From a virus, in IMG/VR virus record IMGVR_UViG_3300032820_000036, positions 1-39,234 of that record: a DNA stretch of 39,234 nt, one strand, 5' to 3'. The notes under the pieces were generated by a model. The model searched no databases, was not told where the DNA came from, and worked only from the letters and a program-made list of their open reading frames with translations. Positions within the stretch are counted from its first letter, which is position 1; every line of letters begins with the position of its first letter. A program made the translations under genes and the position numbers. Of the stretch, positions 3,413 to 38,255 are shown piece after piece.

Positions 3413-3830
3413 GTGGCCGGGATCCGAAGGGTTTGAAGAGCGAGTCAGGATCTTCGCGAAGCTGTTCTCGATATTTCCGGTCACGCGAGGGCAGGATCAG
3501 AAGGCTAGAATCGCTGCCTTCATCGAAGAGACGGCTGGGATCCCGTGTTACTTTCTAAGAAGAGCCCTCTCCATGATCACCAAGACGAGGAGGGACTTCG
3601 CACCCTCCATCGGCGATATCCACTCCGAGGCTGCCCTGGTGTACGCCGAGCTGCTTCGCCGTGGGCTGGGGCAAGACCCTTTTGAAGCCTCTCTCCGTGG
3701 GTTGAGATCAGAATCCATCTCGAGGAGCACCCCAAAACTGATCTTCGCGATGGGTTGCGACCAGGATCCCCGCGTTCTCGAGGTGGCTCACAATTCCTCA
3801 ACCCCGTCGCCGGCAGGGCTGCTGCGATGA
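3324..3830 (+). CDS. Probable replication accessory protein (helicase-loader-like)
   Basis: A 168-residue protein from GTG 3324, preceded by AAGGAAGAGA at suitable spacing. The segment from about residue 39 to 105 has a helical pattern FAKLFSIFP..(many).AFIEETAGIP..FLRRALSMI, then FAPSIGDIHSEAA. The F-x-P-[ST]-x-x-[DE]-[IL] ending resembles small phage proteins that load or regulate the replicative helicase (G39P-like). That assignment is inferred from pattern and position only. The gene overlaps the initiator by 89 nt and overlaps the next gene by ATGA. Confidence 0.6.
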   Translation: MKRIGSLIPDRMSSMRPSPWSPTEGAVPAEWPGSEGFEERVRIFAKLFSIFPVTRGQDQKARIAAFIEETAGIPCYFLRRALSMITKTRRDFAPSIGDIHSEAALVYAELLRRGLGQDPFEASLRGLRSESISRSTPKLIFAMGCDQDPRVLEVAHNSSTPSPAGLLR

Positions 3831-4084
3831 GCCCGAGAACCCCACCCGAGCCCGTCAAATATCGCACCTACCCGTGTGAGAACTGTCGAGAGCCGATGTA
3901 CCTCTATTGGGTTTGGGTCCGAGAAGCCCATATTCCCGGCAAGGGGGATCGGCTTATAGCAGAATTCAACCCATGGAGGATCTGCGCTTATTGCGCCTCC
4001 CGAAAGTGGCATCGAGAGTTAAAACTCAGAGCTAGATTTGAACGCTTCATGGAGCAAAATGAGCCTGAACCGCTACGCCACTAG
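3827..4084 (+). CDS. Small zinc-ribbon protein
   Basis: An 85-residue protein with C17-x2-C20 and C53-x2-C56, the spacing of a four-cysteine zinc ribbon, followed by a basic helix (RKWHRELKLRARFERF). The start at 3827 gives an ATGA overlap with the upstream stop and removes an unlikely TTG-initiated extension. It lies between replication genes and a nuclease-like gene. Nucleic-acid binding is likely from the fold pattern, but the function is not known. Confidence 0.65.
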   Translation: MSPRTPPEPVKYRTYPCENCREPMYLYWVWVREAHIPGKGDRLIAEFNPWRICAYCASRKWHRELKLRARFERFMEQNEPEPLRH

Positions 4085-4376
4085 GCGAGATGACGGCGAA
4101 GAGGCGATCGTCAACCACCTCCGAAACGAGTGTGGTTGCAAGGTCTGGAGGCTGAACCGCCCGGTAGATCTTCTCGTCCAGGCCCCTGAAAATGGCGCGC
4201 TGCTGCTCATCGAAGTGAAATCTCCAGGCGGCAGGCTTACAGACTCTCAAAAGCAGTTTCTCGAGGATACTAGAGGTTCGCCTGTCTATGTGGTCAGATC
4301 GCCACAGGAGGCCAGAGCTGTTGTCGCCACCGTCTCGGCGATCGATATTCCTGGGGGCTGGGGTGGGTTGTCTTAA
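4059..4376 (+). CDS. PD-(D/E)XK nuclease-like protein
   Basis: A 105-residue protein from ATG 4059, with GGAG four nt upstream. It shows the small VRR-NUC/Holliday-resolvase-like order: E15, then VDLLV with D37, then LLIEVKSPGGRLT with E52-x-K54, then a helix with Q64/Q66 and VYVVRSPQEA near the end. These are the expected metal-binding and catalytic residues of a PD-(D/E)XK core. Such phage proteins act on branched or linear DNA during replication, recombination or packaging. It overlaps the zinc-ribbon gene by 26 nt and ends the early rightward block. The substrate is unknown. Confidence 0.75.
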   Translation: MSLNRYATRRDDGEEAIVNHLRNECGCKVWRLNRPVDLLVQAPENGALLLIEVKSPGGRLTDSQKQFLEDTRGSPVYVVRSPQEARAVVATVSAIDIPGGWGGLS

Positions 4377-16361: not shown

Positions 16362-17998
16362 AGATTCCCAGGATCGAGGCTGGCCCCGCAGAGTTCGGGA
16401 GACGTGCTGACCCTGGCGATATGGGGAGTGGTGCCGGTGCTCTTGCGAGTGGTCAAGCGGCTAAGGAACTTGGGCAAATTACACTTGCGCTATTTGAGCA
16501 AGAAATGTCTTCCAAAGTGGCGGCTGCTTCAGCGAGTGCTGGCAGTGAGTTGAACGATCTGCGCCTGGAAGTAGAGCAGGAGCCCGATCATCACAAGCGC
16601 AGTGAGTTGTATTCGACTGGATCGAAGAAGATCACCGATAAATTTCGCCAAGGTTTGATGTTCCCGAAGTACAAGAGTCTCTACGATTCTCGCATTTCAA
16701 AAACTCTCAATGGCAATCGCCTTAGCGTTGCCCAGAGTGTGCGCCAGTCACAGATCGACTCAAGTCGAGCGGATCGCAGGAGCTCCATCGAAAACTTTCA
16801 CGATCAGTACAAAAACACCATTGACGAATCAGTACGCAAAGACTTGCGTGACCAAATCCATGAGCAATGGGATGAGGGTGTAGAGGGTGGTTTGTGGACT
16901 GCGGATTATGCAGCGCAACAAAAGATCATTTCCGACAACCGATTTGAAACTGAACATCTCATCACCCAGAGCCAGATTGCTGCTGATGAAATCATGGACG
17001 AAGAATCGAACCCGAATAAGCGAGTGGCGCTAGCTCGCAAGAGGTACACGGGTGTAATGCGCGACCAGGTGGTGACTCGCTTGGAGCATCGAAACACTGA
17101 AGAGTTGAACGCTCAAGTGAAGGCGCACAATGTCCGGAAGAAGCAGTTGATCCTCCAGGCGTACAAGGAAGGTCCGGATAGGCTTACTCGAGAAGCCTTT
17201 ATGGAGATTGCAGCTCGCGAAAAGTTGCCGTCTGAAGTGATTTCTCCTGTTCTAACCGCGATAAAGTTGGCCGAAACGCGGGCCAACCCTTTGGAACTTT
17301 CGGAAGCAGAGGCGCTCAAGGCGCAGTTGTGGGAAACAAATAGCCAGCGTCTGTTTTTTCAGTTGATGGGAGAGGCTCAGAATTTTACGACTCGACCGCA
17401 TTTTCTCAGAAGGAATTTGTGGGCGGAATATGGAGCTCATATTGACGATAAGCTCTTGCAGAAACTTCTCGCTGAACAAGGCGAGGGGACTGCAAAGCTC
17501 GGCGTAGAATGGGCAAAACGGATTGAGCGCAAAATGGCCCAGTTGGGCCTCCCGGTAACTGCCGCACAGTATGCGGAGGAATCTGAGAAGGTTGCCGAAT
17601 CTGAAAATTTTCGAGCAAGAGCGTTGACCCACATTGAAGTTGCGACTGAGGCAAAAGGCTTGCCTCTCACGGAAACGGAAGTCCAAGGGATACTTGATGT
17701 TCTTGGCGATAAAATTGTGATAGATGAAGGACACATTTTTGATACAACGATTCGTCGTTACCAGGTCACGCCGGAAACGGAAGTTGACTGGCCCGATGAT
17801 GCTACTGAACAGCAAATACGCGATGTACACGGGCTTGGGAATCGGGATGATGTGGACGCCCTCGAACTAATCCGAAAGACTTTTGCAGAGATGGTATTTG
17901 GCAAATCCCTAATTCCTCTCCCTGAGCGGTACAAGGCGAGTCCGCCACAACAACCACAACGGACTGGCCCCGGCGGTACTGGCCGAAGCGGTCGATGA
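16358..17998 (+). CDS. Internal virion (ejection) protein, T7 gp15-like position
   Basis: A 546-residue, almost entirely helical, charged protein. It starts at GTG 16358, overlapping the upstream stop as GTGA. Heptad-like stretches lie at about 45-130 and 200-260, and the C-terminus is a proline/glycine tail (SPPQQPQRTGPGGTGRSGR). No catalytic motif is visible. Its place before the giant protein and its composition match internal core or ejection proteins. The start of the giant gene overlaps its stop as ATGA. Confidence 0.78.
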   Translation: MKIPRIEAGPAEFGRRADPGDMGSGAGALASGQAAKELGQITLALFEQEMSSKVAAASASAGSELNDLRLEVEQEPDHHKRSELYSTGSKKITDKFRQGLMFPKYKSLYDSRISKTLNGNRLSVAQSVRQSQIDSSRADRRSSIENFHDQYKNTIDESVRKDLRDQIHEQWDEGVEGGLWTADYAAQQKIISDNRFETEHLITQSQIAADEIMDEESNPNKRVALARKRYTGVMRDQVVTRLEHRNTEELNAQVKAHNVRKKQLILQAYKEGPDRLTREAFMEIAAREKLPSEVISPVLTAIKLAETRANPLELSEAEALKAQLWETNSQRLFFQLMGEAQNFTTRPHFLRRNLWAEYGAHIDDKLLQKLLAEQGEGTAKLGVEWAKRIERKMAQLGLPVTAAQYAEESEKVAESENFRARALTHIEVATEAKGLPLTETEVQGILDVLGDKIVIDEGHIFDTTIRRYQVTPETEVDWPDDATEQQIRDVHGLGNRDDVDALELIRKTFAEMVFGKSLIPLPERYKASPPQQPQRTGPGGTGRSGR

Positions 17999-20900
17999 GT
18001 TCCTCCCCGTACACAGATGAAGAAGTGCGCGCTGCTGGTGAGGCCGTGCGACTGCGTATTGCCGAAGAAGAGAAGGCAAAGGCGCGTAATCTCATTTCTG
18101 CGCGTTCTCGAGAGGAAGCGCCAAATCGGTTTGAGGCGCTCCAGTTGGAATCGCGTACCGGGGTTCCAGTAGATACGGTAGAGCGGAACCTCCCCGAAGT
18201 TCGATCGATGGATACGGCGAACGGTCTGGATCCCAATCGCGTGGCTACCAGTCCTGCTACGTCCAATTTGCTTTCCGGGCCTCTGGCTCCGATGGCGATG
18301 AAGGAGATCGCCGAGTCCCGTACTAAGAATGTACGTCCGACACTCGCTCCACTTTGGAGCCAGCCCTCGGAAGTTACGAGCCCTGTTGCCCAAGCTGGAT
18401 ATGGCGATGTGGCTTCGACTTCGCTCGATCGCGGGTCGTACATCGTTGACGTTGGTTTGTACGGCTCCCGTATTTTGAATGGCACGGCCAGCCCGATGGA
18501 TCGGATTCGCTTTGCGGAGTTGCGCCGCCAGGGGGCTCCCGTGGTTCCCGATTTACCAGGGTACGCGGATGACGTACTAGGAATGCTTGTCGAGCAGGCT
18601 CCAATTATGGGGAGCGTCCTTAGCTATGCCGGAGTAGGAGCTGCTACTGGGGCTGCCATTGGTGCGACGGCGTTTGGTGCGGGGGCCGGTCCAGGCGCGC
18701 TTCTTGGTGCCGGGGGCGGAACCTTTGTTGGCGCTTTCAACCTCGAGGCTGGGAATGCCCTGGCGGAAGTGATGGATGCCGCTGATGAGCTGAAGGCCAG
18801 CGAAGGCATTGAGATATCGGAGGATGTTCTCCACTGGACTGCGAGGTTTGTTGGACTCGTCAATGCTGGCATCGAGGTTACCGGGTGGGGGATAGTTTCT
18901 CGCGTTTTCGGATTAAGCGCCCTGGTGAAGGGACTTTCCAGAGATGCGGTAAAGCAAATACTCAAGTCGAAAACACTTCGACCCCATCTGAAAAAACTTG
19001 CAAAGCGTGTAGCCACGGCGGGGGCCGTTGGGTCAGTAGAGGAGTTCAGCCAGGAAGCTGTCAATGTAGCCGCTACCCATTTTATCATTTCTAACGCGAA
19101 GGGCGAAGATCTCGTACAAAAGCCGTCACGGGAGACTTGGGAAAGACTTTTCAAGGCGTGGGCTGCTGGCTTTATCGTCTCATCCTTTTATGGCGCTCCT
19201 GCTCATGCGGTTATGGCGGGTATTGAAAACGTATCGGCGAATAGGATTGCAAGGAGAAAGGAGGGGATCCTCGACAAGCTGGTTGAGTTTGTCGGCAACA
19301 GTAATTTGCCAAAAGCTGATGCGGCCAGGTTCAAGGAGTACCTGCAAAAGGTGATCGAGGAAGGTGGCGGCGATCCCAATATGTACATCGATGCGAGATC
19401 CGTGGCTGCCTATTTCGAGGCAAACGAAATCGAACTAAGCGAACTTGCGGAAGCGATCCCCGATGTGTTTGCCCAGTTGCCGGAAGCTCTTGCTGCTGGC
19501 GTTGATCTCGTAATTCCGATAGCCGACTACGCCACCTACCTAAGCGAGCACCATGAGGGTCTGAAGGCTCACGTTCGGCACGGGCTCAACGCTCCGAGCC
19601 CAGCGGAGGTGGGCGAGAACGAGGCCCAGGCTGAGTCGGATCTCGGGGAGGCTCTGACTAATCTTGACGAGGAAGAGGCGGCTGCGGCCAGCGCGACCCC
19701 TGGGGAGAGAATAGCCCAGGCGTACCTCCAGAAACTTGTCAGCGAGGGCGTCTACAGTCCCGCGGATGCCCACCAGCATTCTCAGGTGCTGGGGGCATTC
19801 ATGGAGGAACGCATTCAACGGAGGATCCGCGAAGAGTCCGACCGCCTTGGGAGGGAGTTGACTTCCGAAGAGGTCGAGGCAATTACCGAAAGGCTGGTGG
19901 CTCAGGCCGAGGCGGTTGCGGTGGAGGGCTGGGGAGCGTTGGATGTCCCAGCCCGTCCCACTTTCGAGCAGGCCCTGGAGCGTATCGATATGAATACGCT
20001 TCTGGATGAGATCCGATCGGGCGTTACCCCCGAGGTCAAGGGGATGTCGAGAACCCCGATTCTCAATGAGATCCGTCGCCAGGGCGGCGTTGCGACTGTT
20101 CATCAGACTGCCGGTGGATGGGTCCAGAGCCCTCTGGCTGCCGAGCTGGAGGCTCTTGGTGTTACCCCGAAGACCAACCCCGGTTTATTTCGGGATCCGC
20201 GCAACCGCGCAAAGTGGTCACAGGCGAAACGGCAGGAGGTTCCAGCCCCCAAGGCTGACTTCGATTCTTTCGACTGGACCGATAACGAGTTGCTTCGCGG
20301 CCCAACCGATGATTTCGGACGGCCTACAGACTTCGATGATTTATACGATGCGATAAGGGAAGAGCTCGCCGGGACTCCTCGCCGCACCGAAGCGGAGTCC
20401 CAGAAGATCGTCGATTTCCAGATCCCTCGCGAGCAACTCAGCGCGATCCTCGACCAGCTCGGCGTTGATCTCGAGACAACTACGAACGAAGAAATCATCG
20501 AGATGCTGCGGCAGCAGTTCCAGGTGGATGAGGCAGTCGAAGCTGACGCCCCTGGAGAGCTAGACGATGGCAGCGAGTTGTTCCAAAAGGCGAAGCTGGA
20601 AGACCAGATTCCTGGGCTAAAGGGGATACTTCCTTACCTTTCGGAGTCTGAAAAGGCGAAGCTCCGAAAAGATACCGGGCGCAGATTGGTTTCCATTTTT
20701 CAGGAGATGCCGGATGCAACAGAGCTAGCCAGCTTGGCATTCGCTGGCAGGGCGAAACGCGGATGGTATCGCGATAGCGCCAAGGCGTTGGTGGATATTT
20801 TTGGCATCGATGACGCGCCCAGGTTCGCCGCCCTCTTGGCAGCATTGTCGCCCCAAACCTCTGTTGAGGTGAATGCGCTGAATGCGTTGAATGTTTGGGT

Positions 20901-23900
20901 CAACTGGGTAAAGGCTGGGAGGCCGACTGGCAAGAAGGCGATTCTCCGCGTCATGGGTGATTCGGTCCTTGGAGATAAGGGCATCGAAAGCGTATTGGGA
21001 GCATGGCGGAATAATTCAATACGGGCGCTGTCATCGAAAGACCCCGGCTCCCTGGTTATCTCTGGCCCTAAAGTCAATTCCTTCATGCTGAATTTGAGGG
21101 GATTCGTTGACGAAGTCACAAACGATGCGTGGATGGCAAATGTCTTAGGGGTGGATCAAGAAATTTTCAGCGGCGCTATCAATGTTGCAGGGACAGATGC
21201 CGGTAAGGGTCCAGGGTATCTGGCTGCATCTGCGTTGATACGGAAGGCTGCGGACATTGTTTCTCGTAGGACGGGCGAGAATTGGAGCCCCTCAGAGGTT
21301 CAAGAGACTGTGTGGTCTTGGGCCAAGGCTCTTCTGGAGCAGAGGCTTTCCAAGGATGAGGCTCGCAGCGCGCTGAAGCTGGTTCGCGAGCAGGGTGGCC
21401 CTGACGTATTGCGGTTAGCCGATACGCCGGATTTTGCGGTACTCTTTGCAAATGGCATCTACAGGAAAATCCTTGAAGCCGGTGGGCTCGGAGAAGCCGC
21501 AGAGTTTGCAGCTCGCAGTGGACAGGCTGCTCGACGTGCTCGAGGAAGAGGGCGAGGCCCTGGCGGGCAAACGCCTGGAATTGCAAAAGATCGTTTTGAG
21601 GCCGATCTCCGAAGGGCCGCGAAAAGGCTAGACCGTCTAGCGGAAGCTAGGGCGGCTGCCAAAGCAGCGAAGACCCTCGAGCAGGCTGCGGTTCTGCGAG
21701 TTGATAAGCCCTCTCTCCCTGGCGTGTGGGTAGATTTCTCTGGCGCTGGCACGGTCGAGGCTGTGCTGGAAGGCGTCGAGGGCGTGGGTGCCACCGAGTA
21801 CAAGCCCGAGATCATTGCCCAGTACAACGAGGCCCACGGGACCAACTACGAGGCCGCCGATGTAAACGAGGTGGACCCGGCAGACATTGCCGCAGCCAAG
21901 CCCACTCTCTACGAAGCGAGCCCCGTCTGTAAGAATTTCTCCAAGGCGAAGGCACTCGCCCAGGCAGACGAGCTCGATCGGAAGTCTGCGGAGACTGTCG
22001 CCAACGTAATCCGCGTAGCGGAACCGCCTTTGGTTGTGGTCGAGAACGTGCCGAAGTATGCCGATACGGCGCTGTTCAAACTCATCACCGACGCCTTGGA
22101 TGAGAAGGGCTATACCTGGGAAGTTGTTATTCACGATGCTGCTGATTACGGGGCGGTTCAAACTCGTAAGCGGATGATCTTGCGCGCGGTGAAGGACGGA
22201 AAGCTGCCAGCTCGCCCAAAGGAGCAGGCTCCAGGCGATTGGTTTACTGCGGTCGAGGATTTGCTGGACGCAGCCCCGGATGCCACGATACCCCCGGTAG
22301 AGATGGGGCGTCTGCGCGAGATGGAATCACGCGGGAAGCTGGATTTCGACAAGCCGATCATAACTATGGGCGGGTCTGCATTTCGCGGAAGTTGGGCCGC
22401 ATCCAATGCCGGCGGTCCATCCCCAACGCTCAAGGCTTCCAACGAGGTTCCCCGGATCATTATGCCGGATGGGCGTGTAAAGCGCGTCACTCCCAGGATG
22501 ATGGCGCGTCTCATGGGGTTGCCCGATTCGTATCCCGTGCCAGAAAACAAAAGGCTTGCGAAGACTGTCCTTGGCAACGGTGTCCACGGTGCCACTACGC
22601 GGGCTTTGATCCAGCCCCTGGTGGATCAAGTGACGCCCCAGGCTGCGACCACCCTCGAGCAGTCCCCAGTCCCCGATGCGGAGCGCCCTCTTGGTGGCGT
22701 CTTCTATTCCGCCCTGGGCCGTGCGCTTCGCACTTCCAAGCAGCGAAAGATGACTGTGCAGCAGCTCCGCGGTTTGCTCAAAAAGGAGCGCGTGAAGGAA
22801 GAGGAGATTGTCTGGACTGGCCTCGACGAATTTCTCGAGGGTCTGGATCCCAAGGACAAGATTGATCTCGGCCTCCTGCTGGACAATATAAGCCTGGTCC
22901 AGGTCGAAGAGGTTGTGCTGGGTAAGTCGAAAATGGATGAGCTCCCAGATGAAAGAGCGTTGTGGGACGATTTGAATGATCCTGTCGGGTGGAAGATGCC
23001 AGATTTGGACTCTGCCGAGGCTCGCGATGTGGACGCGCCTGCGCCGTACAAAGATATAGTCGGAGAATCCGACGGAGAAGAATTCAAGTATCGAGTTTAC
23101 CTCTGGGAGGAGGGCCAGGATGTCTGGGTCAGGAGATCGCCTGATGACCCAGGCCAGACCGCGCTCTTAGAGATTGTGCCAGATGCGGAGTTTCCAGGGA
23201 CTCTTATTGACGCGGCGGTACAAACGATACTGAAAGATTTAGAATCTCGATTAAGTCCAGAACGGGAAAAGTTCGTTGGGGAACCCAAGTTCGACTCCCC
23301 TTCCTATCAACTCCCCGGCGGCAAGGACTATCGGGAGACGTTGATTACGTTGCCGCCCATCCATCACACTGCCGATATCGAGGCGCGAATTGACAGCCTG
23401 GAAAAGGGTAAGGAGTTCGCAGAAGGTGCGGACTGGGACGAGATGGATGCAGAGGTGCAGCGCCTAAAGGCATTGAGAAAACAGGACCGGCTATTCACCG
23501 GCGGCCACATGGGCGGTGTCGCCCCCAACATCCTGGTACACGTTCGCTGGAATGTTCGCACTGGACCCAACGGCGAGAAGATCCTTTTCATCGAAGAGAT
23601 CCAAGATGATTGGGCGAAGGCAGGGCGGAAGAGTGGGTATGCTGGGGCTTTTCCGCAGGAGGTGGTTGATGCTGCCGTTGCTGGAGGCATGACAGAAGAA
23701 GCGGCTGTGGCGGATGTTCGCCACCTCATGGAGGAACCGCTAGACGCGGAAGGCAGGCCGACAATGGACGAGTGGGCTCGGCTAATTAGTGCCACCGAGT
23801 ACAGCTCTATCGACCTGAACGAAGTTTTCCACGATCGCCGGGACAGAGGCGTCCCCGATCGCCCCTTCAAAACGTCCGGTGCCAGCACCATGCTTGCCTT

Positions 23901-26900
23901 CAAGCGGATGGTCGCCTACGCGGCAAAGAACGGTTTCGACTCCGTGGCTTGGACAACCGGCAAGGTTCAGGTGGAACGCTACGAGAGCGCGCTGCGCCAG
24001 TCGGTGGATGAGATCGAGTGGGAGCCGGGCCGGGTATCCGCCGGCGGCATAGGTTCTGCTGCCGGGTGGGCGCGTCCGAGCCATGTGAGTTTTATAAAGG
24101 ATGGCGAAGTCGTTCTGGACATGGACGTTGTAACCGAGACTGGGCTGGTGCTTACGACTTCGACGGGTGGCGAGGATGCAATCGGTGGACCCATCGAAGC
24201 GGTGGTGGGCAAGGATATCGCCTCGCAGATCCTCGACTCTGAGGAGGGCTCCGTCTCCGAAGAAAACCTCACGATCGGCGGCAAGGGATTTGAGGATATC
24301 TATGACAAGACCCTGGTGAAGGGCGCGAACAAACTAGGCAAGCCTTTCGGTACGAAGGTTGGGCGAATTGATGTGGGTACCGCACCAGGCCGATACGTTC
24401 CTGAAGGTCTTGACCAAACCTTCAGATACGAAGTCCACCTCGAGTCGGAACATGGGGACACGTTTTACGATTCTTACGAGACGATGGATGAAGCCCAATT
24501 CGCTGCGGCGTCCTACAGGACTGATATGCCAGAAGGACAGTGGTCTGTAATCGACTCTGAAAGTACAAAGGAAGGCCAGGGGACTCCCGTCCATAATCTC
24601 CCCATCACCGACAAGCTCCGGGCCAGCGTTGCGGCGGAGGGGTTCTCGTTGTTCCAGGCCGCAGCCGGAGGACCGCGAGGGCAGATCCGCTTCGATGCCG
24701 AGATGGAAAATATCGTCATACGATTCACCGAGGCCAGGGATTTGAGTACCGGGCTCCATGAGCTGGCGCATCTGTTCCTCGAGATGATAATGCAGGACGT
24801 GACACTCTCTGAATTGAATCGGGGTGGAGCCGCAGGCGCAGAACTTGCCAAGGATATGGAGGCCATTCTCAACTTCCTTGGGGTTTCGTCACTCGAGGAA
24901 ATTGAGACAGAGCACCATGAGAAGTGGGCCAGGGCGTTTGAGGCATACCTTCGCGAAGGGAAAGCGCCTTCAGTCGAATTGCAGTCTGCCTTTAAGCGGT
25001 TCAAGGCGTGGCTCATACAGATTTACAAAAGCCTTCGCCAGTTGAATGTCGAGCTGAGCCCGGAGATTCGCGAGGTTTTCGACCGGATGCTGGCGAGCGA
25101 GGAGCAGATCGCCCAGGCCAGGGATGCCGATATTCGGATGCAGCCCAGATTTGAAAGCGCGGAAGTTGCCGGCATGACTGACGGGGAGTTCGCAGAATAC
25201 GAAGCGTCTTACGATCGGTGGATGTCGCCGGCGCAGGAGCGGACATTGCGGGCCGCCTTGGCAGAGAAGAAGCGCGAAGGGACGAAGGTCTGGAAGCAGA
25301 ACTACGCGAAGATGCGGGCCGAGGTTGAGGCCGATATCAATTCCCAACCCGTCTACCGCCTTCGCCACTGGCTCCAACATGGGAAGTTTCTAGACGAAGA
25401 AACCCCAGAGGATCTCGAGCACGTTCGCCTGGATCGAGACATTCTGAAGAAACGCTACGGCAGGGCAATCTTGAAAGCGTTGGGAGGCGCTGGCAAGTAC
25501 GGGATGTGGCAGAAGGACGGGATCGGCCCGGATGCGATGGCCGATCTATTTGGTTTTGTTTCGGGAGATGCCCTGGTTCGCGCCTTGCAGCAATCGATCA
25601 ATCGCGACCAGGCCATCGATGAAGAAACGTCTCGCCGTATGAAGGAAGTCTACGGCGATATGCTGAATGACGGCTCGCTCGCGGAGCTCGCGCTTGATGA
25701 ATTGGAGAGTGACGAGAAGGGCAATTTCCTTTCGCGGGAACTGCGAGTGCTCGCCAAAAAGGCAGGAGCCCCTGGTACTCCGCAGGCCGTCTCCAAGAAG
25801 ATCGCCAAGAGGATGATCGCCCAGAAGCGGATCCGCGATTTGCGTGCTGACATTTTCCGGCGCGCGGAGCAGCGAGCAGCTCGGGAGGTTCTGGATGCCG
25901 TCGATGCTCAGAACTGGCAGGAGGCCCACGCCGCTTCCATGCGCCAGTTGCTCAGTCACTTCTTGGTGCTCGAGGCTACCCAACGTAAAGAGCAAACCAC
26001 GAAGTGGCATCTCTACCTACGCACGTTTGACGATAAGAAAAAGATCGAGAGGATTGGCAAGGCGGGAGGGGACCACCTCCAGCAGATATTCAATCTTCTA
26101 GACCGCTTCGATTTCCGAAAGATCAGCAACAAGGAAGCTGACCGCCGTCAGCGCCTGGCCGAATGGATCACGGAGAAAGAAGCAGAAGACGAGACGGCTG
26201 AATATGTGATCGACGATCGTCTGAGAGACGAGGCGTTCCGATCCCCCTGGCGGAACCTTACGGTCGAAGAGCTAGAGAGTGTTGTCGATGCTGTGAAGAA
26301 CATCGAGCACATGGCGATGCTCAAAAACAAATTGCTTCTCGCAAAGGACAAACGCGAGTTCGATGCCAAGGCCGAGCTCGCCGCCGAGACAATCGAAAGA
26401 AACCGCCGAAGCGCAAAGCCCATCCCGAAAGAGCACCATCTCAAGGAAACGGCCAAAGACCTAGCTGGCAGTTACTTTGCCAGCCACCGAAAGATTGCCA
26501 GCTTGGTGGAAGAAATGGATGGTCGCGAACTGGGTGGTCCGCTGTTCGACATGATCCTTCGCCCTATGGATGAGCAGTCATCGTGGGAAACCGAGGAGCG
26601 CGTAAAGTCTGCCGAGCGGCTCCATGAGTTGATCAAGCTCTACACCGATATCCCGCTGTTTGGATCAGAGAAGGCCAAGCAAGTAGCGACGAAGTTGACC
26701 CTGGGCTTTGTCGATCGAGTTCGCCCAGAGTTGTCTTTGCCGAAGCTGGTCCCAGGAACTGCCGATATTCATTTGTCAAAGATTGGCCGAATCGTGGCCG
26801 TGCTCAATACAGGCAACGCTGGGAATATGCAGCGGTTGAGGGATGGCTACGGGTGGTCCCCCGAAGATATCCAGGCGATTCGCAATAGCCTCTCCAAGGA

Positions 26901-28446
26901 GGATATGGATTTCGTCCAGGGCGTTTGGGATTTCATCGATGAATACTGGGAGCTGGTGGCCGCCAAGCAAAAGCGCGTTACTGGTGTGGCTCCCAAGAGG
27001 GTCACGCGCCAGCCGTTTACAACCATACACGGGACTTATGCTGGCGGGTATTTCCCGATCGCGGACGATCCAAATCAGACCGCCAGGGCTTACGGGAATG
27101 TCCTTGCCGAGACGGCCAAAGAAACTATGAGAGGTTTTCGGGCTGCGTCTACTACCCTTCGCGGCCATACGAAGGCACGCGCAGACAAGGTTATGGGCAA
27201 GAAACTGCGTCTCGATTTCGGGGTAATCTTTGAGCACGTCAACGGCGTTATCCACGATCTCGCTTGGCATGAGTGGCTCATCGATACGAATCGCCTCCTG
27301 CGTGACGAGAGAATTTCACAGGCCATCATCCAGGGATACGGCAACCCGGTCTATCGCAACTTGATCAATGCCGTGAGGGATATCGCTGCGGGCGATGTCG
27401 CTGCTGAGAAGGGCTGGGAGCAAGCAGTCAACTGGCTCCGCACCGGGGGGTCCATTGCCGCGATGGCACACAACGCGATGACGGCAGCCCTTCAGCCTTT
27501 CGGTATTTTTCAATCGTGGCAGATGATAGGGGTGGAGTGGGTTGCCAAGGGAATAGGGAAATGGTGGCGCGGCCCGGAGCAGATTCAAGGTACTGTCGAG
27601 TGGATCCATTCGGTGGACTCGTTTATGAAGAATCGCGCGCTAACGATGCAGCGCGAAATCCGCGAAGTCCAGCTATCAGCTCGCGAGGGCGGCGGGCCGA
27701 GCAGGTTCAAGGACAGTCTTTTCTATTTTATTGTCAAGACTCAGATGCTTGTCGATATTCCGACGTGGCTTGGCGCTTACGAGAAAGAGATGGAGATCGG
27801 CTCAGGTGACCACGATCGCGCAGTGGCGATGGCTAGGCGCACCGTGAAGGACACCCAGGGGAGCGGCGAGATATCGGATCTGTCGGCTATTCAACGCGGT
27901 AGTCCGTTGCTAAAAGCATGGACAGCGTTCTATCACTTCTTCAATACTACGATGAACCTCACCGCCCAGTCTTATCGCTCGACCGATTTCAAGCAGCCCC
28001 TCGAGGTGGGGAGGTTCGCCGCGGATATGGTTCTTCTCTATTCGTTTCCCGCCTTCCTCTCCGATCTGATGAGAAGAGCCATTATGGATAACTGGGATGA
28101 AGACGAGAGTTGGGGCGAGATGGTCATAAGATCCCACGCTGGATATGCGTTGGGCACACTGGTTGGCCCTCGAGAATTAAGCGGCATCGCCTCTGGCTTT
28201 ACCGATTACGAGGGGCCAGCGGGCACTCGATTCTTTTCGGCTATCTCGAAGCTCTCGGTTCAGGTTGGTCAGGGCGAGGTGGATGCGGCGTCCATCCGAG
28301 CTCTTAATGCAGCAGGCGGGATCGTGTTTCATTATCCGGCTATCTCGTTCCAGAGGATCGTCGAAGGAGCCCTCGCTATTTCAGCAGGGGAAACGCAAAA
28401 TCCGGTTCGGTTACTGACCGGGCCGACGAGGGAACAGAGGCAATGA
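17995..28446 (+). CDS. Giant polyvalent virion protein (3483 aa) with embedded C5 methyltransferase and zincin motif
   Basis: One uninterrupted frame covering 27% of the window, in the T7 gp16-like position. Visible regions: a glycine/alanine-rich hydrophobic segment (about 194-250); a possible HhH-GPD-like region (about 873-1165; LSPQTS 951-956, SGPKVNSF 1023-1030, TNDAWMANVLG 1042-1052); a C5 cytosine methyltransferase (about 1243-1545; DFSGAG, SPVCKNFS with C1312, ENV 1350-1352, QTRKRM 1389-1394, GNGV 1527-1530); an uncharacterised domain common in polyvalent proteins (about 1773-2180; HVRWNVRTGPNGEKILFIEE); a zincin motif HELAH (2255-2259) with HEKWARAFEAYL about 50 residues on; long helical regions; and a hydrophobic C-terminal region with NAMTAALQPFGIFQSW. 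Such proteins are thought to be ejected with DNA and act in the new host. Both enzyme roles are inferred from motifs. Confidence 0.88.
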   Translation: MSSSPYTDEEVRAAGEAVRLRIAEEEKAKARNLISARSREEAPNRFEALQLESRTGVPVDTVERNLPEVRSMDTANGLDPNRVATSPATSNLLSGPLAPMAMKEIAESRTKNVRPTLAPLWSQPSEVTSPVAQAGYGDVASTSLDRGSYIVDVGLYGSRILNGTASPMDRIRFAELRRQGAPVVPDLPGYADDVLGMLVEQAPIMGSVLSYAGVGAATGAAIGATAFGAGAGPGALLGAGGGTFVGAFNLEAGNALAEVMDAADELKASEGIEISEDVLHWTARFVGLVNAGIEVTGWGIVSRVFGLSALVKGLSRDAVKQILKSKTLRPHLKKLAKRVATAGAVGSVEEFSQEAVNVAATHFIISNAKGEDLVQKPSRETWERLFKAWAAGFIVSSFYGAPAHAVMAGIENVSANRIARRKEGILDKLVEFVGNSNLPKADAARFKEYLQKVIEEGGGDPNMYIDARSVAAYFEANEIELSELAEAIPDVFAQLPEALAAGVDLVIPIADYATYLSEHHEGLKAHVRHGLNAPSPAEVGENEAQAESDLGEALTNLDEEEAAAASATPGERIAQAYLQKLVSEGVYSPADAHQHSQVLGAFMEERIQRRIREESDRLGRELTSEEVEAITERLVAQAEAVAVEGWGALDVPARPTFEQALERIDMNTLLDEIRSGVTPEVKGMSRTPILNEIRRQGGVATVHQTAGGWVQSPLAAELEALGVTPKTNPGLFRDPRNRAKWSQAKRQEVPAPKADFDSFDWTDNELLRGPTDDFGRPTDFDDLYDAIREELAGTPRRTEAESQKIVDFQIPREQLSAILDQLGVDLETTTNEEIIEMLRQQFQVDEAVEADAPGELDDGSELFQKAKLEDQIPGLKGILPYLSESEKAKLRKDTGRRLVSIFQEMPDATELASLAFAGRAKRGWYRDSAKALVDIFGIDDAPRFAALLAALSPQTSVEVNALNALNVWVNWVKAGRPTGKKAILRVMGDSVLGDKGIESVLGAWRNNSIRALSSKDPGSLVISGPKVNSFMLNLRGFVDEVTNDAWMANVLGVDQEIFSGAINVAGTDAGKGPGYLAASALIRKAADIVSRRTGENWSPSEVQETVWSWAKALLEQRLSKDEARSALKLVREQGGPDVLRLADTPDFAVLFANGIYRKILEAGGLGEAAEFAARSGQAARRARGRGRGPGGQTPGIAKDRFEADLRRAAKRLDRLAEARAAAKAAKTLEQAAVLRVDKPSLPGVWVDFSGAGTVEAVLEGVEGVGATEYKPEIIAQYNEAHGTNYEAADVNEVDPADIAAAKPTLYEASPVCKNFSKAKALAQADELDRKSAETVANVIRVAEPPLVVVENVPKYADTALFKLITDALDEKGYTWEVVIHDAADYGAVQTRKRMILRAVKDGKLPARPKEQAPGDWFTAVEDLLDAAPDATIPPVEMGRLREMESRGKLDFDKPIITMGGSAFRGSWAASNAGGPSPTLKASNEVPRIIMPDGRVKRVTPRMMARLMGLPDSYPVPENKRLAKTVLGNGVHGATTRALIQPLVDQVTPQAATTLEQSPVPDAERPLGGVFYSALGRALRTSKQRKMTVQQLRGLLKKERVKEEEIVWTGLDEFLEGLDPKDKIDLGLLLDNISLVQVEEVVLGKSKMDELPDERALWDDLNDPVGWKMPDLDSAEARDVDAPAPYKDIVGESDGEEFKYRVYLWEEGQDVWVRRSPDDPGQTALLEIVPDAEFPGTLIDAAVQTILKDLESRLSPEREKFVGEPKFDSPSYQLPGGKDYRETLITLPPIHHTADIEARIDSLEKGKEFAEGADWDEMDAEVQRLKALRKQDRLFTGGHMGGVAPNILVHVRWNVRTGPNGEKILFIEEIQDDWAKAGRKSGYAGAFPQEVVDAAVAGGMTEEAAVADVRHLMEEPLDAEGRPTMDEWARLISATEYSSIDLNEVFHDRRDRGVPDRPFKTSGASTMLAFKRMVAYAAKNGFDSVAWTTGKVQVERYESALRQSVDEIEWEPGRVSAGGIGSAAGWARPSHVSFIKDGEVVLDMDVVTETGLVLTTSTGGEDAIGGPIEAVVGKDIASQILDSEEGSVSEENLTIGGKGFEDIYDKTLVKGANKLGKPFGTKVGRIDVGTAPGRYVPEGLDQTFRYEVHLESEHGDTFYDSYETMDEAQFAAASYRTDMPEGQWSVIDSESTKEGQGTPVHNLPITDKLRASVAAEGFSLFQAAAGGPRGQIRFDAEMENIVIRFTEARDLSTGLHELAHLFLEMIMQDVTLSELNRGGAAGAELAKDMEAILNFLGVSSLEEIETEHHEKWARAFEAYLREGKAPSVELQSAFKRFKAWLIQIYKSLRQLNVELSPEIREVFDRMLASEEQIAQARDADIRMQPRFESAEVAGMTDGEFAEYEASYDRWMSPAQERTLRAALAEKKREGTKVWKQNYAKMRAEVEADINSQPVYRLRHWLQHGKFLDEETPEDLEHVRLDRDILKKRYGRAILKALGGAGKYGMWQKDGIGPDAMADLFGFVSGDALVRALQQSINRDQAIDEETSRRMKEVYGDMLNDGSLAELALDELESDEKGNFLSRELRVLAKKAGAPGTPQAVSKKIAKRMIAQKRIRDLRADIFRRAEQRAAREVLDAVDAQNWQEAHAASMRQLLSHFLVLEATQRKEQTTKWHLYLRTFDDKKKIERIGKAGGDHLQQIFNLLDRFDFRKISNKEADRRQRLAEWITEKEAEDETAEYVIDDRLRDEAFRSPWRNLTVEELESVVDAVKNIEHMAMLKNKLLLAKDKREFDAKAELAAETIERNRRSAKPIPKEHHLKETAKDLAGSYFASHRKIASLVEEMDGRELGGPLFDMILRPMDEQSSWETEERVKSAERLHELIKLYTDIPLFGSEKAKQVATKLTLGFVDRVRPELSLPKLVPGTADIHLSKIGRIVAVLNTGNAGNMQRLRDGYGWSPEDIQAIRNSLSKEDMDFVQGVWDFIDEYWELVAAKQKRVTGVAPKRVTRQPFTTIHGTYAGGYFPIADDPNQTARAYGNVLAETAKETMRGFRAASTTLRGHTKARADKVMGKKLRLDFGVIFEHVNGVIHDLAWHEWLIDTNRLLRDERISQAIIQGYGNPVYRNLINAVRDIAAGDVAAEKGWEQAVNWLRTGGSIAAMAHNAMTAALQPFGIFQSWQMIGVEWVAKGIGKWWRGPEQIQGTVEWIHSVDSFMKNRALTMQREIREVQLSAREGGGPSRFKDSLFYFIVKTQMLVDIPTWLGAYEKEMEIGSGDHDRAVAMARRTVKDTQGSGEISDLSAIQRGSPLLKAWTAFYHFFNTTMNLTAQSYRSTDFKQPLEVGRFAADMVLLYSFPAFLSDLMRRAIMDNWDEDESWGEMVIRSHAGYALGTLVGPRELSGIASGFTDYEGPAGTRFFSAISKLSVQVGQGEVDAASIRALNAAGGIVFHYPAISFQRIVEGALAISAGETQNPVRLLTGPTREQRQ
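24042..24071 (+). repeat. 30-bp exact repeat, copy 2
   Basis: Identical to 15860-15889 and in the same frame (GGIGSAAGWA, residues 2017-2026 of the giant protein). It sits inside a region otherwise made of charged beta-type sequence, where this glycine/alanine segment looks out of place. Confidence 0.9.
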
Positions 28447-35836: not shown

Positions 35837-35996
35837 CCCCCCTCCGTGCCCAGCTCCGAGCGAGCCAGCGATCGTGGACATTCATCACATCGTCCAGGTG
35901 GGGCTCGCGTCTCCCCCGAGATACGCTTCGCTTATGATGTGGATCTCCGAAATTGAGAGGTTTTGCACGGCGCTAGACGCTTTCCGAGAGGGTTAG
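35742..35996 (+). CDS. Rz1-like outer-membrane lipoprotein spanin
   Basis: An 84-residue protein, out of frame with the Rz-like gene and overlapping it by 95 nt. A basic N-terminus and hydrophobic stretch lead to CASVGC (C26 as lipid-attachment candidate), then a proline-rich segment (GSPPPCPAPSEP) typical of Rz1 proteins. The lipobox has S rather than L/V at -3, so lipidation is not certain. Its 3' end overlaps the convergent sigma-like gene by 65 bp. Confidence 0.62.
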   Translation: MTKRASLWRAARSWSSAFALCASVGCVTTGGSPPPCPAPSEPAIVDIHHIVQVGLASPPRYASLMMWISEIERFCTALDAFREG

Positions 35997-36621
35997 CAAC
36001 CGGCAACGCCGAAGAAAAGAAAGCGTTGATAATTCTCCGGTCGAGCTGTCTGACCCTTTCTTTCGACAAGCCGACTGCTTGCCCAATTTCCCCCAAAGTT
36101 CTGAATGGATCTTGCAGCGTTCGTCCTTTGAAGATCACCCTATCCCTTACGGTCATTTGCCCCATCTTCTCGAGTAGCCAAGCTGGGGGCATATTCTGAA
36201 TTGCGAAGTTAAGTTGGGTTCTTAGGGCCTGGTTCCAGTTCACCATTCCTGTGCGTAACTCCTGAACCTCCAGACTCAAATTTAGGTTTCGCTCCAGCAC
36301 TTCCATGTACTTGCTTTCTCTGTCCATGTACTTGCTTTTTCTGACTACCCAGGCGTCCTCGCTGTAATTGTCGAGAACTAGCCCCCAATCGTTGTCATGG
36401 GATGGCGGCCCCTCGATTGTTGGGTTTTGAAAGATGATTTGAAGTGCTCTGTCGGTAGTTGATTTGTCAAGGTACGCGACTCCTGCGTCTCGACTTTTAA
36501 TCTCGCCCAGGTCTTCATGTTCTCTGGCGAGGTTCACGATCTCCTTGCCAGCGCGCTCTACGATCTCCATCATTTCAGGGTGGTCTTGGTATTTTATGAA
36601 CAGAGTTATTTTGAGTTTCAT
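35932..36621 (-). CDS. Sigma-70 region 4-like regulatory protein
   Basis: A 229-residue protein. Residues about 150-202 match sigma region 4: MTVRDRVIFKGR, TLGEIGQAVGLSKERVRQLD (176-195), then a final helix. No regions 2 or 3 are visible, so it cannot act as a full sigma factor by itself; it may bind -35-like DNA or the RNA polymerase flap. The N-terminal 150 residues are unrecognised and include a short repeat (SKYM at 96 and 103). It is the last gene of the leftward block. Its ATG overlaps the stop of the alternative frame in the methyltransferase gene (ATGA), and AGGAAAG precedes it. Confidence 0.72.
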   Translation of the reverse strand: MKLKITLFIKYQDHPEMMEIVERAGKEIVNLAREHEDLGEIKSRDAGVAYLDKSTTDRALQIIFQNPTIEGPPSHDNDWGLVLDNYSEDAWVVRKSKYMDRESKYMEVLERNLNLSLEVQELRTGMVNWNQALRTQLNFAIQNMPPAWLLEKMGQMTVRDRVIFKGRTLQDPFRTLGEIGQAVGLSKERVRQLDRRIINAFFSSALPVANPLGKRLAPCKTSQFRRSTS

Positions 36622-37895
36622 CTTTCCTCAATTTCTCGTAGCAAGTATCGCAAGAGCTGTCGCTGCCTGAAGAGCCACCACTCCATTGCCTGCGGCTCTA
36701 AGTCTATCAGCGCGCTCGACCATCCGGGGATCCAGCCGAGCATCCAGTCCACGAAGTTCGGGTTTAGTTTCGCTTTCCCCGCTTCCGTTCCGCGGTACGG
36801 GTTCCCCTTCATCCCCCCCCATTCGTCCAGCCCCCCCGAGTTGTTCCCCTGGACCGCGTTTGGGGTCCACCAAAGCTGGCGCGAGTTCTGGATGAAGTTC
36901 AATGATTCGCGACCAGGCGTCTCGGTCGCTTGGCCCTGGTGGGAACGGGGGGTAGTCGAATTCCCGAAGAGAACCATGTCCGTGAGGCTCACCCCCGCGT
37001 GAGCCTTCGACCCCTCTAGGTTTCGCGCCCCTCCCCCCGTCGCGTCCCCCGCGACCGGCGTCGGCCAGTTCTTTACCATTGCCGGTAGATCCACCGAATG
37101 CATTAAGCCCGGTTTCGCTTGGCTCGATTTCAGATTCTCCTTTACTGGATCGAGAGCTGTCGGAGTCGGCCAGTTCGCCGCTTCCCGATTCAGATTCTGG
37201 CCCTGCGTTGAGAGCGTGTCCGCTCCCGGCCTTCTCCCGTCGTGCGCTGTCGGAGTCGGCCAGCTCGCCGCCCATGTCCCCAGAGATGGAGTCCCAGCCG
37301 TTGGCCGCTTGTGCGGGACCACTCCCTCGTTCTGGCTGGTTCCATAGGGTGTCGCGGATGGCGTCGGATATTGATTCCGATCCCACGGGCTGCCTGCCGA
37401 ATACGAAAAGCCTAGACCTTCTATGGGGGGCTCCCACGTCGGATGCTCGTAGGCACATCCACTCACAATCGAACCGCTCGTCGGCCAGCGATCGGAGTAC
37501 GTCTCCGAAAATTCGTCCCCCCCCAATGGTAAGAAGGGACTGCACGTTTTCCAAGAAAACGTACTGCGGTCGAACCTCGCGAATGATCTCCGCGATTCTT
37601 GGGAAGATGTGGCGTTCGTCTTTGTCGCCTCGGCGGCTACCCGCGTTGCTGAACGGCTGGCACGGAAATCCGGCACTGAGGATAGAAATTTTCTGAGCCC
37701 ATGGTCGAGGGTCGAAGTCGAATATGTCGTCGCAGACAGGAGCTGGATCCAGGGTCGAATCTTCCATCCTCGCCACGAGAGTGCTCGCCGCGTGAGAGTT
37801 CCACTCTGCGTGGCAGACAGTTCGATATCGCTCTCCGAGAGCGATTCGGATTCCAAGCTCGAGGCCGCCAACCCCGGCACATAAAGCCATCCCAT
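36618..37895 (-). CDS. Overlapping frame 2 ORF (425 codons) resembling a phage methyltransferase-associated protein
   Basis: A same-strand frame (+1 relative to the methyltransferase) open for 425 codons. It starts 4 nt after the methyltransferase ATG and shares its GGGGG ribosome site at 8-nt spacing. It has ARFDRSTFSWKTC (106-118), FSETYSDRWPTSGSIVSGCA (129-148), SWPTPTAHD (211-219), NWPTPTALD (241-249), NWPTPVAGD (276-284), WWTPNAVQG (342-350) and LNPNFVDWMLGW (377-388). These fit a phage family I recall with repeated WPTPTAxD and LNPxWVEWLMG motifs, often named methyltransferase. Its stop forms an ATGA overlap with the sigma-like gene. Translation is not proven. Confidence 0.5.
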   Translation of the reverse strand: MGWLYVPGLAASSLESESLSESDIELSATQSGTLTRRALSWRGWKIRPWIQLLSATTYSTSTLDHGLRKFLSSVPDFRASRSATRVAAEATKTNATSSQESRRSFARFDRSTFSWKTCSPFLPLGGDEFSETYSDRWPTSGSIVSGCAYEHPTWEPPIEGLGFSYSAGSPWDRNQYPTPSATPYGTSQNEGVVPHKRPTAGTPSLGTWAASWPTPTAHDGRRPGADTLSTQGQNLNREAANWPTPTALDPVKENLKSSQAKPGLMHSVDLPAMVKNWPTPVAGDATGGGARNLEGSKAHAGVSLTDMVLFGNSTTPRSHQGQATETPGRESLNFIQNSRQLWWTPNAVQGNNSGGLDEWGGMKGNPYRGTEAGKAKLNPNFVDWMLGWIPGWSSALIDLEPQAMEWWLFRQRQLLRYLLREIEER

Positions 37896-37899
37896 TCAT
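36628..37899 (-). CDS. DNA cytosine-5 methyltransferase (frame 1)
   Basis: A 423-residue enzyme with all key motifs in order: motif I LCAGVGGLELG (6-16), catalytic GFPCQPFS (77-84, C80), ENV (117-119), GAPHRRSRLF (156-165), and motif X AAGNGVV (402-408). Between about 185 and 370 it has a low-complexity segment with repeated ELADSDS. It methylates cytosine C5, probably to protect phage DNA. It overlaps the upstream winged-helix gene by ATGA. G8 tracts (sense) lie at 37517-37524 and 36813-36820, and G7 at 36831-36837. A second open frame runs along nearly the whole gene. Confidence 0.92.
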   Translation of the reverse strand: MNGMALCAGVGGLELGIRIALGERYRTVCHAEWNSHAASTLVARMEDSTLDPAPVCDDIFDFDPRPWAQKISILSAGFPCQPFSNAGSRRGDKDERHIFPRIAEIIREVRPQYVFLENVQSLLTIGGGRIFGDVLRSLADERFDCEWMCLRASDVGAPHRRSRLFVFGRQPVGSESISDAIRDTLWNQPERGSGPAQAANGWDSISGDMGGELADSDSARREKAGSGHALNAGPESESGSGELADSDSSRSSKGESEIEPSETGLNAFGGSTGNGKELADAGRGGRDGGRGAKPRGVEGSRGGEPHGHGSLREFDYPPFPPGPSDRDAWSRIIELHPELAPALVDPKRGPGEQLGGAGRMGGDEGEPVPRNGSGESETKPELRGLDARLDPRMVERADRLRAAGNGVVALQAATALAILATRN

Positions 37900-38255
37900 T
37901 TTTCCCCCAGGTAAAAAAAGCGAGCGCCTCGAGAGCTCTCTCCCACGCGCTCGATCAGACCAGCTCGACGCAGTTCCGGCAAGCGTTTCCCTATGGCCGA
38001 CTTGTGAAGCCCGGTGGGCTCCTCGAGCCCTTCCGCGGTTCGGCCAGGATGTTCGCGGATTGCCTTCAGGACAATAGCTGAGTGCTTGCTCGCTCCGAGC
38101 TGCCCGAGCCTCTCCGCGGCCAACGCCGAAGAAGGCGGATCGGTGGAGCGAGAGCGGGGAGCCCCGATATTGAGGCGGGCCGTGGAATTCGACCGGTTCA
38201 AATCGAGGCTCCCCTGGATACCCGCATCACCTCCCTGGTTTTTGCGGGTAGCCAT
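37896..38255 (-). CDS. Winged-helix DNA-binding protein
   Basis: A 119-residue protein with a basic, disordered N-terminus (1-45) and a winged-helix domain (about 50-116): SKHSAIVLKAIREHPGRTAE, GLHKSAIGKRLPELRRAGLI, then a wing ERVGESSRGARFFYLGE. The pattern resembles MarR/DprA-C-terminal-type domains. It lies directly after the SSB-like gene and overlaps the methyltransferase by ATGA. A regulatory or replication-linked role is inferred only. Confidence 0.75.
   Translation of the reverse strand: MATRKNQGGDAGIQGSLDLNRSNSTARLNIGAPRSRSTDPPSSALAAERLGQLGASKHSAIVLKAIREHPGRTAEGLEEPTGLHKSAIGKRLPELRRAGLIERVGESSRGARFFYLGEK

Follow-up and report, generated by a model that had tools for sequence, protein, structure and literature searches.

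The window analysed here, a stretch of 39,234 nucleotides of viral DNA (IMG/VR record IMGVR_UViG_3300032820_000036), carries on its minus strand two open reading frames that overlap almost end to end. Frame 1 (36628..37899), hereafter alpha, encodes 423 amino acids assigned as the putative catalytic subunit of a cytosine-C5 DNA methyltransferase with motifs I–VIII and X. Frame 2 (36618..37895), hereafter beta, encodes 425 amino acids with a putative recognition region and motif IX, and lies in the +1 relation, such that position 3 of each beta codon is position 1 of an alpha codon. All features of the locus described below are on the minus strand and are given in window coordinates.

The two start codons are 4 nucleotides apart (ATGAATG) behind a single GGGGG ribosome site (GGGGGAAAA-ATG-A-ATG, 37893..37908). 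The upstream gene, which encodes a winged-helix (MarR-like) protein (37896..38255), shares the frame of beta, and its TGA touches both starts, lying between them: the alpha ATG overlaps it (ATGA) and the beta ATG follows directly after (TGAATG). At the other end, the stop of beta and the ATG of the following gene share an ATGA junction (36618..36621), through which that gene (35932..36621; sigma-70 region 4-like by a weak match, E = 6.9e-6) may be translationally coupled to beta. Elsewhere in the window, a 3483-aa ORF at 17995-28446 weakly resembles C5 methyltransferases at 21859-22182 (E = 6.6e-5).

The catalytic motifs and the putative recognition region lie in different frames

The PF00145 match in alpha (E = 3.4e-36) spans only residues 2–170 of 423, that is, through motif VIII, and is accompanied by a match to phrog_363 (E = 1e-50). 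Alpha contains the catalytic motifs I, IV (PCQ), VI (ENV) and VIII, with PCQ and EN invariant among 11 alphas, and a motif X region (residues 395–423, 36631..36717) in which the motif reads GNGVVALQAA near residue 403. Motif X is in the alpha frame in 76 of 91 homologues and in 70 of 78 beta-picked loci. Motif IX and the recognition region are absent from the alpha frame of the window, where the stretch from motif VIII to motif X gave no recognizable match.

Beta matches a different cluster, phrog_1008 ('DNA methyltransferase', E = 5e-30), as do 35 of 35 aligned betas. Pfam searches returned no family for beta at E ≤ 1, and no nuclease domain (HNH or other) for the window protein at that threshold; Pfam and NCBIfam together held no family covering beta, and PDB profile searches with beta and with an alignment of the IX–X region gave no credible match. 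The ordered elements of beta comprise FARFD (residues 105–109), a series of PTP repeats at 36858..37370 (YPTP at residue 176, WPTPTA, WPTPTA and WPTPVA at 212, 242 and 277, and WWTP at 342) and a motif IX-like LNPNFVDWMLGW at residue 377, within the segment LNPNFVDWMLGWIPGW (residues 377–392, 36720..36767). Across 31 betas, W212, T214, P215, T279 and P280 are almost invariant, and L377, W384 and G387 of motif IX are invariant. The DNA that encodes the PTP repeats in beta reads as ELADSD-type repeats in alpha. From its position between motifs VIII and IX, the PTP-repeat zone is a candidate for DNA recognition.

Three layouts were found among the homologous loci (L numbers). Motif IX is in beta and motif X in alpha in the window, L004, L007, L009, L011 and L012; both are in beta in L001 and L003; and both are in alpha, with the middle in +1, in L002, L008, L059, L082 and L092. 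In the seven relatives with the latter two layouts, the beta element L[NS]PxFVEWMMGxPxGW runs into motif X within one frame, and in L002 a single chain matches PF00145 from 1 to 316. We identify the element as the C5 motif IX region from this contiguity and the L002 match. We also take L[NS]PxFVEWMMG to correspond to the classical motif IX of M.HhaI.

AlphaFold models of beta alone were of low confidence, with a mean pLDDT of 50 for the window protein and 53 for a shorter relative. Residues 1–103 of the window beta fall below a pLDDT of 50 almost throughout and are predicted to be disordered. The better-modelled parts are a hairpin at residues 105–118 (FARFDRSTFSWKTC, 37542..37583, pLDDT 68–77), which is the earliest ordered element in beta; the helix of motif IX (379–385); and a C-terminal helix. 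Such a model fits a by-product leader followed by a body that may need alpha to fold, and is proof of neither. In L007, the closest relative by beta, an ORF at 3742-4281 of that locus combines several pairs of Cys with an HNH-like RHHPD motif. It lies in the beta frame directly behind motif IX and terminates in the tail of beta, with alpha open throughout, and resembles published hidden HNH insertions, with no match in Pfam.

Coordinates and sequence bear out much of what the first-pass annotation had described from the letters of the window: a frame 2 open for 425 codons that starts 4 nucleotides later from a shared ribosome site, its ordered motifs (ARFD, the WPTP/WTP-type repeats and the element read here as motif IX-like), its stop within an ATGA junction and the reading of one DNA segment as both ELADSDS repeats (frame 1) and WPTPTA repeats (frame 2). 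Its description of frame 1 as a complete C5 methyltransferase failed, given the extent of the PF00145 match and a recognition region and motif IX that are not in frame 1.

The overlap is conserved in phages and bacteria

Every frame 2 match in the phage loci that we examined lay in +1 relative to a catalytic C5 ORF. A scan of viral contigs with an alpha alignment recovered 80 loci, all 80 with a beta match in +1 and none in +2, in a sample that was not blind to the subfamily, the alignment having been built from beta-found loci. Picking loci with beta gave 80 viral loci and 74 genome loci from bacteria of many phyla, two of the latter binned as archaeal; in 153 of these 154, beta was nested in alpha in the +1 relation. 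The sole locus scoring in +2 of alpha (L166:2766-3832) possibly reflects an indel or sequencing error. The two archaeal-binned loci (L093 and L096, Candidatus Poseidoniaceae contigs) are both on contigs of about 3 kb that may be viral. Overall, hundreds of sequences from phages, bacteria and archaea keep the double reading, and within one phylum 12 of the 150 genomes sampled carried beta.

In canonical full-length C5 enzymes encoded by the same bacterial genomes, the +1 frame was open over at most 36%, significantly so in none of 11, and one of them (L251) had a weak match to the beta profile (3e-6). Among genes with a PF00145 match that ends near motif VIII, 9 of 11 had a +1 frame open over 70–99% together with a strong beta match. 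Among enterobacterial plasmid matches, neither chain was found with a simple motif filter; M.CfrI originates from Citrobacter. The records examined usually name just one of the two chains, such that C5 methyltransferases appear in them with no recognition subunit, and some betas are 'hypothetical' and the catalytic gene is missed. Beta alone is annotated, as hypothetical, and alpha missed at L004:2245-3094 (Rctr197k) and at L011:2014-2752 (Pseudomonas phage phPA-G).

The paired start is likewise a recurrent feature. NTGNATG was present in 98 of 177 homologues, against at most 8 for other spacings used as controls, and stood six codons upstream of motif I in 95 loci. Where the second alpha residue is an Asn before a codon starting with G, it is encoded by AAT in 64 of 65 cases, compared with 221 of 369 Asn codons in the same context at other places in these genes, which indicates that the beta ATG is preserved by a codon choice silent in alpha. 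About half of the loci lack the dual start; in some of these, which belong to other subfamilies (L009, L012 and L247 are examples), beta must begin inside alpha, with AAGGAG about eight bases upstream of an internal ATG in L009.

Stops are avoided in both frames and selection switches between them

When the window alpha was shuffled among synonymous codons, 7.6 stops were expected in +1 and only 1 was seen (P = 5e-5), this single stop being the TGA of the upstream gene within ATGA; the +2 frame was as expected (17 stops versus 19.9). Among homologues, the median fraction of alpha left open was 97% for +1 and 19% for +2, and codon shuffles rejected chance (p<0.01) for the +1 frame in 69 of 91 loci and for the +2 frame in 1 of 91, with alpha GC among those loci from 0.42 to 0.70. 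We rejected a high-GC by-product as the source of this openness, the pattern being present in alphas with a GC of 0.42–0.50 and absent from canonical C5 genes with a GC of 0.39–0.65.

Stop avoidance is also visible in substitutions. Along motifs I–VIII, alpha-synonymous changes that create a +1 stop reached 0.20 of their expected rate, as judged from the same base change at other sites (+2 control, 1.20). Between motifs VIII and X, beta-synonymous changes that create an alpha stop occurred at 0.17 of expectation (+2 control, 2.0), a figure taken from uncut loci, as subjects cut at their own stop give a bias.

The window has few close relatives, so the selection tests draw mostly on more distant homologues. 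Substitution rates at alpha positions 1, 2 and 3 were 0.20, 0.13 and 0.40 along motifs I–VIII, 0.28, 0.11 and 0.10 between VIII and X, and 0.14, 0.04 and 0.32 from X onward. In independent pairs, each locus being used once, alpha position 3 was faster than position 1 in 60 of 60 pairs across I–VIII (37396..37899, where the beta frame is kept open); alpha position 1, which is beta position 3, was faster in 45 of 46 pairs between VIII and X (36718..37395), with position 3 faster in the remaining 1 of 46; and at motif X alpha position 3 was again faster (49/51). The ratio of the rate of alpha-nonsynonymous/beta-synonymous changes to that of alpha-synonymous/beta-nonsynonymous changes was 0.2–0.5 over most of I–VIII, 2.3–4.9 between VIII and X and 0.27 at X; just ahead of VIII it was 0.7, where both frames are constrained.

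Protein similarity between VIII and X followed the same division, with z>4 in 81% of random pairs for the +1 translation, 28% for alpha and 16% for +2; for the window itself, similarity was found in 47 of 58 comparisons for +1, 13 for alpha and 0 for +2. The VIII–X zone is under selection in the beta frame, and the alpha frame, merely kept open, is non-conserved there. Tested across homologues, as the first-pass annotation had proposed, both frames are constrained, with the selected frame switching along the DNA.

Discussion

The reading that we very strongly favour is a two-subunit cytosine-C5 DNA methyltransferase whose parts stand in their normal order and are encoded in two overlapping frames. 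Along the DNA the order would be the usual one (I–VIII, recognition region, IX, X), with the frames differing. Alpha would supply AdoMet binding, catalysis and motif X, crossing the DNA of the recognition region as a non-conserved linker; beta would begin with a largely unstructured leader read from the catalytic DNA, followed by the recognition region and motif IX. The two would be initiated separately at the shared ribosome site, beside the stop of the upstream gene, and the chains would assemble into one active enzyme. Judging from the sequences, both chains are probably expressed, and they may form an alpha–beta heterodimer with methylation activity, which phages could use to shield their own DNA from host restriction.

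One polypeptide made by programmed frameshifting, reading frame 1 for I–VIII, +1 for the recognition region and IX, and frame 1 again for X, would also suit parts that are colinear with an ordinary gene and a selected frame that switches at two points. We nevertheless consider it very unlikely: two shifts would be needed in one gene, M.EcoHK31I is reported as two polypeptides (PMC3404938), and the conserved beta start at +4 would be left unexplained, as would the avoidance of +1 stops in I–VIII and of alpha stops in VIII–X. Two full-length chains fit this stop avoidance better than one frameshifted chain. A function for frame 2 separate from the methyltransferase (an anti-restriction protein, a regulatory protein or a homing element inside the gene) is still less probable, as beta carries the motif IX that alpha lacks and that relatives fuse in frame to X, and is present in every alpha-picked locus rather than patchily like a mobile element; such a function has in its favour the published out-of-frame HNH genes hidden in phage methylases (PMC11855218) and the Cys-rich, HNH-like ORF in the beta frame of L007.

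The first-pass annotation had left a choice between overprinting of two proteins and a by-product of conserved methyltransferase DNA that happens to be open in +1 and that databases have made into a family (phrog_1008). To the latter, as an account of the whole gene, we give the slightest chance of all. The conservation of VIII–X in frame 2, with its own wobble position, when alpha is not conserved there, argues against it, as do the avoidance of +1 stops, the canonical C5 genes without the open frame, the lower-GC loci that behave alike (alpha GC down to 0.42) and, barring alignment error, the class rates and position tests. It agrees with a frame 2 that is almost never found apart from alpha, and with a disorder prediction for beta residues 1–100 opposite conserved motifs. 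The scarcity of independent frame 2 genes, which the annotation had counted against coding, is real (all but one of the beta-picked loci are nested), yet coding stands given the selection on frame 2 between VIII and X. Overprinting is thus upheld for the gene as a whole, and a by-product only for roughly beta residues 1–100, opposite motifs I–VI; with +1 stops there at 20% of expectation, even this part is apparently translated. The claim of two full-length same-strand frames that are both conserved and coding holds. The idea that they are two separate protein families does not, the evidence pointing to two halves of one enzyme in colinear order, split between frames.

The small subunit of M.EcoHK31I is reportedly encoded in another frame inside the large one. 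M.EcoHK31I (YGGCCR) consists of two polypeptides, a large one with motifs I–VIII and X, in which the predicted recognition domain is placed, and a small one with IX (PMC3404938). Compared by description, our alpha (I–VIII and X) and nested beta (IX, in another frame) resemble these subunits; as far as that description goes they differ in that beta matches alpha in length, its start lying 4 nucleotides later, and also in that the whole VIII–IX region is selected in the beta frame. M.AquI, also a natural two-polypeptide C5 enzyme, is split once within the variable region, its small subunit holding both IX and X (PMC3404938); the content of L001 and L003 is similar, but their chains overlap in frame. 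Artificial splitting of C5 enzymes between VIII and the recognition domain is feasible (PMC3404938). The ShiLan domain, an HNH endonuclease hidden in another frame of a phage methylase (PMC11855218), is likewise a second product of such a gene, but as a sporadic homing insertion, whereas beta is a constant component of its enzyme. Paenibacillus phage Shelly gp56, 'g55 internal gene', is a beta-type ORF annotated within a methyltransferase gene, with a start inside alpha in contrast to the shared start of the window; phrog_1008 is a sequence cluster whose entry mentions neither a subunit role nor the overlap. Literature searches, with most subscription papers beyond their reach, found the arrangement nowhere reported as general.

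The locus is best read as genuine overprinting, conserved among homologues, in which the two frames encode halves of a single enzyme of the M.EcoHK31I kind, here overlapping over their full length and with recognition assigned entirely to beta. We lean towards a broader view, in which a widespread class of C5 methyltransferases, in many phages, bacteria and some archaea, is encoded in two frames along its whole length, in many cases with a single dual start (A-TGA-ATG), and frame rather than gene order parts catalysis from recognition; this class would probably have been born of frameshifts in an ordinary gene that were rescued by fragment complementation. Conserved same-strand overlaps of about 420 codons with a selected zone in each frame are, to our knowledge, rare. 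Here, selection within one gene is handed over to the second frame and later returned to the first, and the family occurs in phages and many bacterial phyla. It is also a clean natural system for the origin of overlapping genes, and one in which neighbouring start codons could set the ratio of the two chains.
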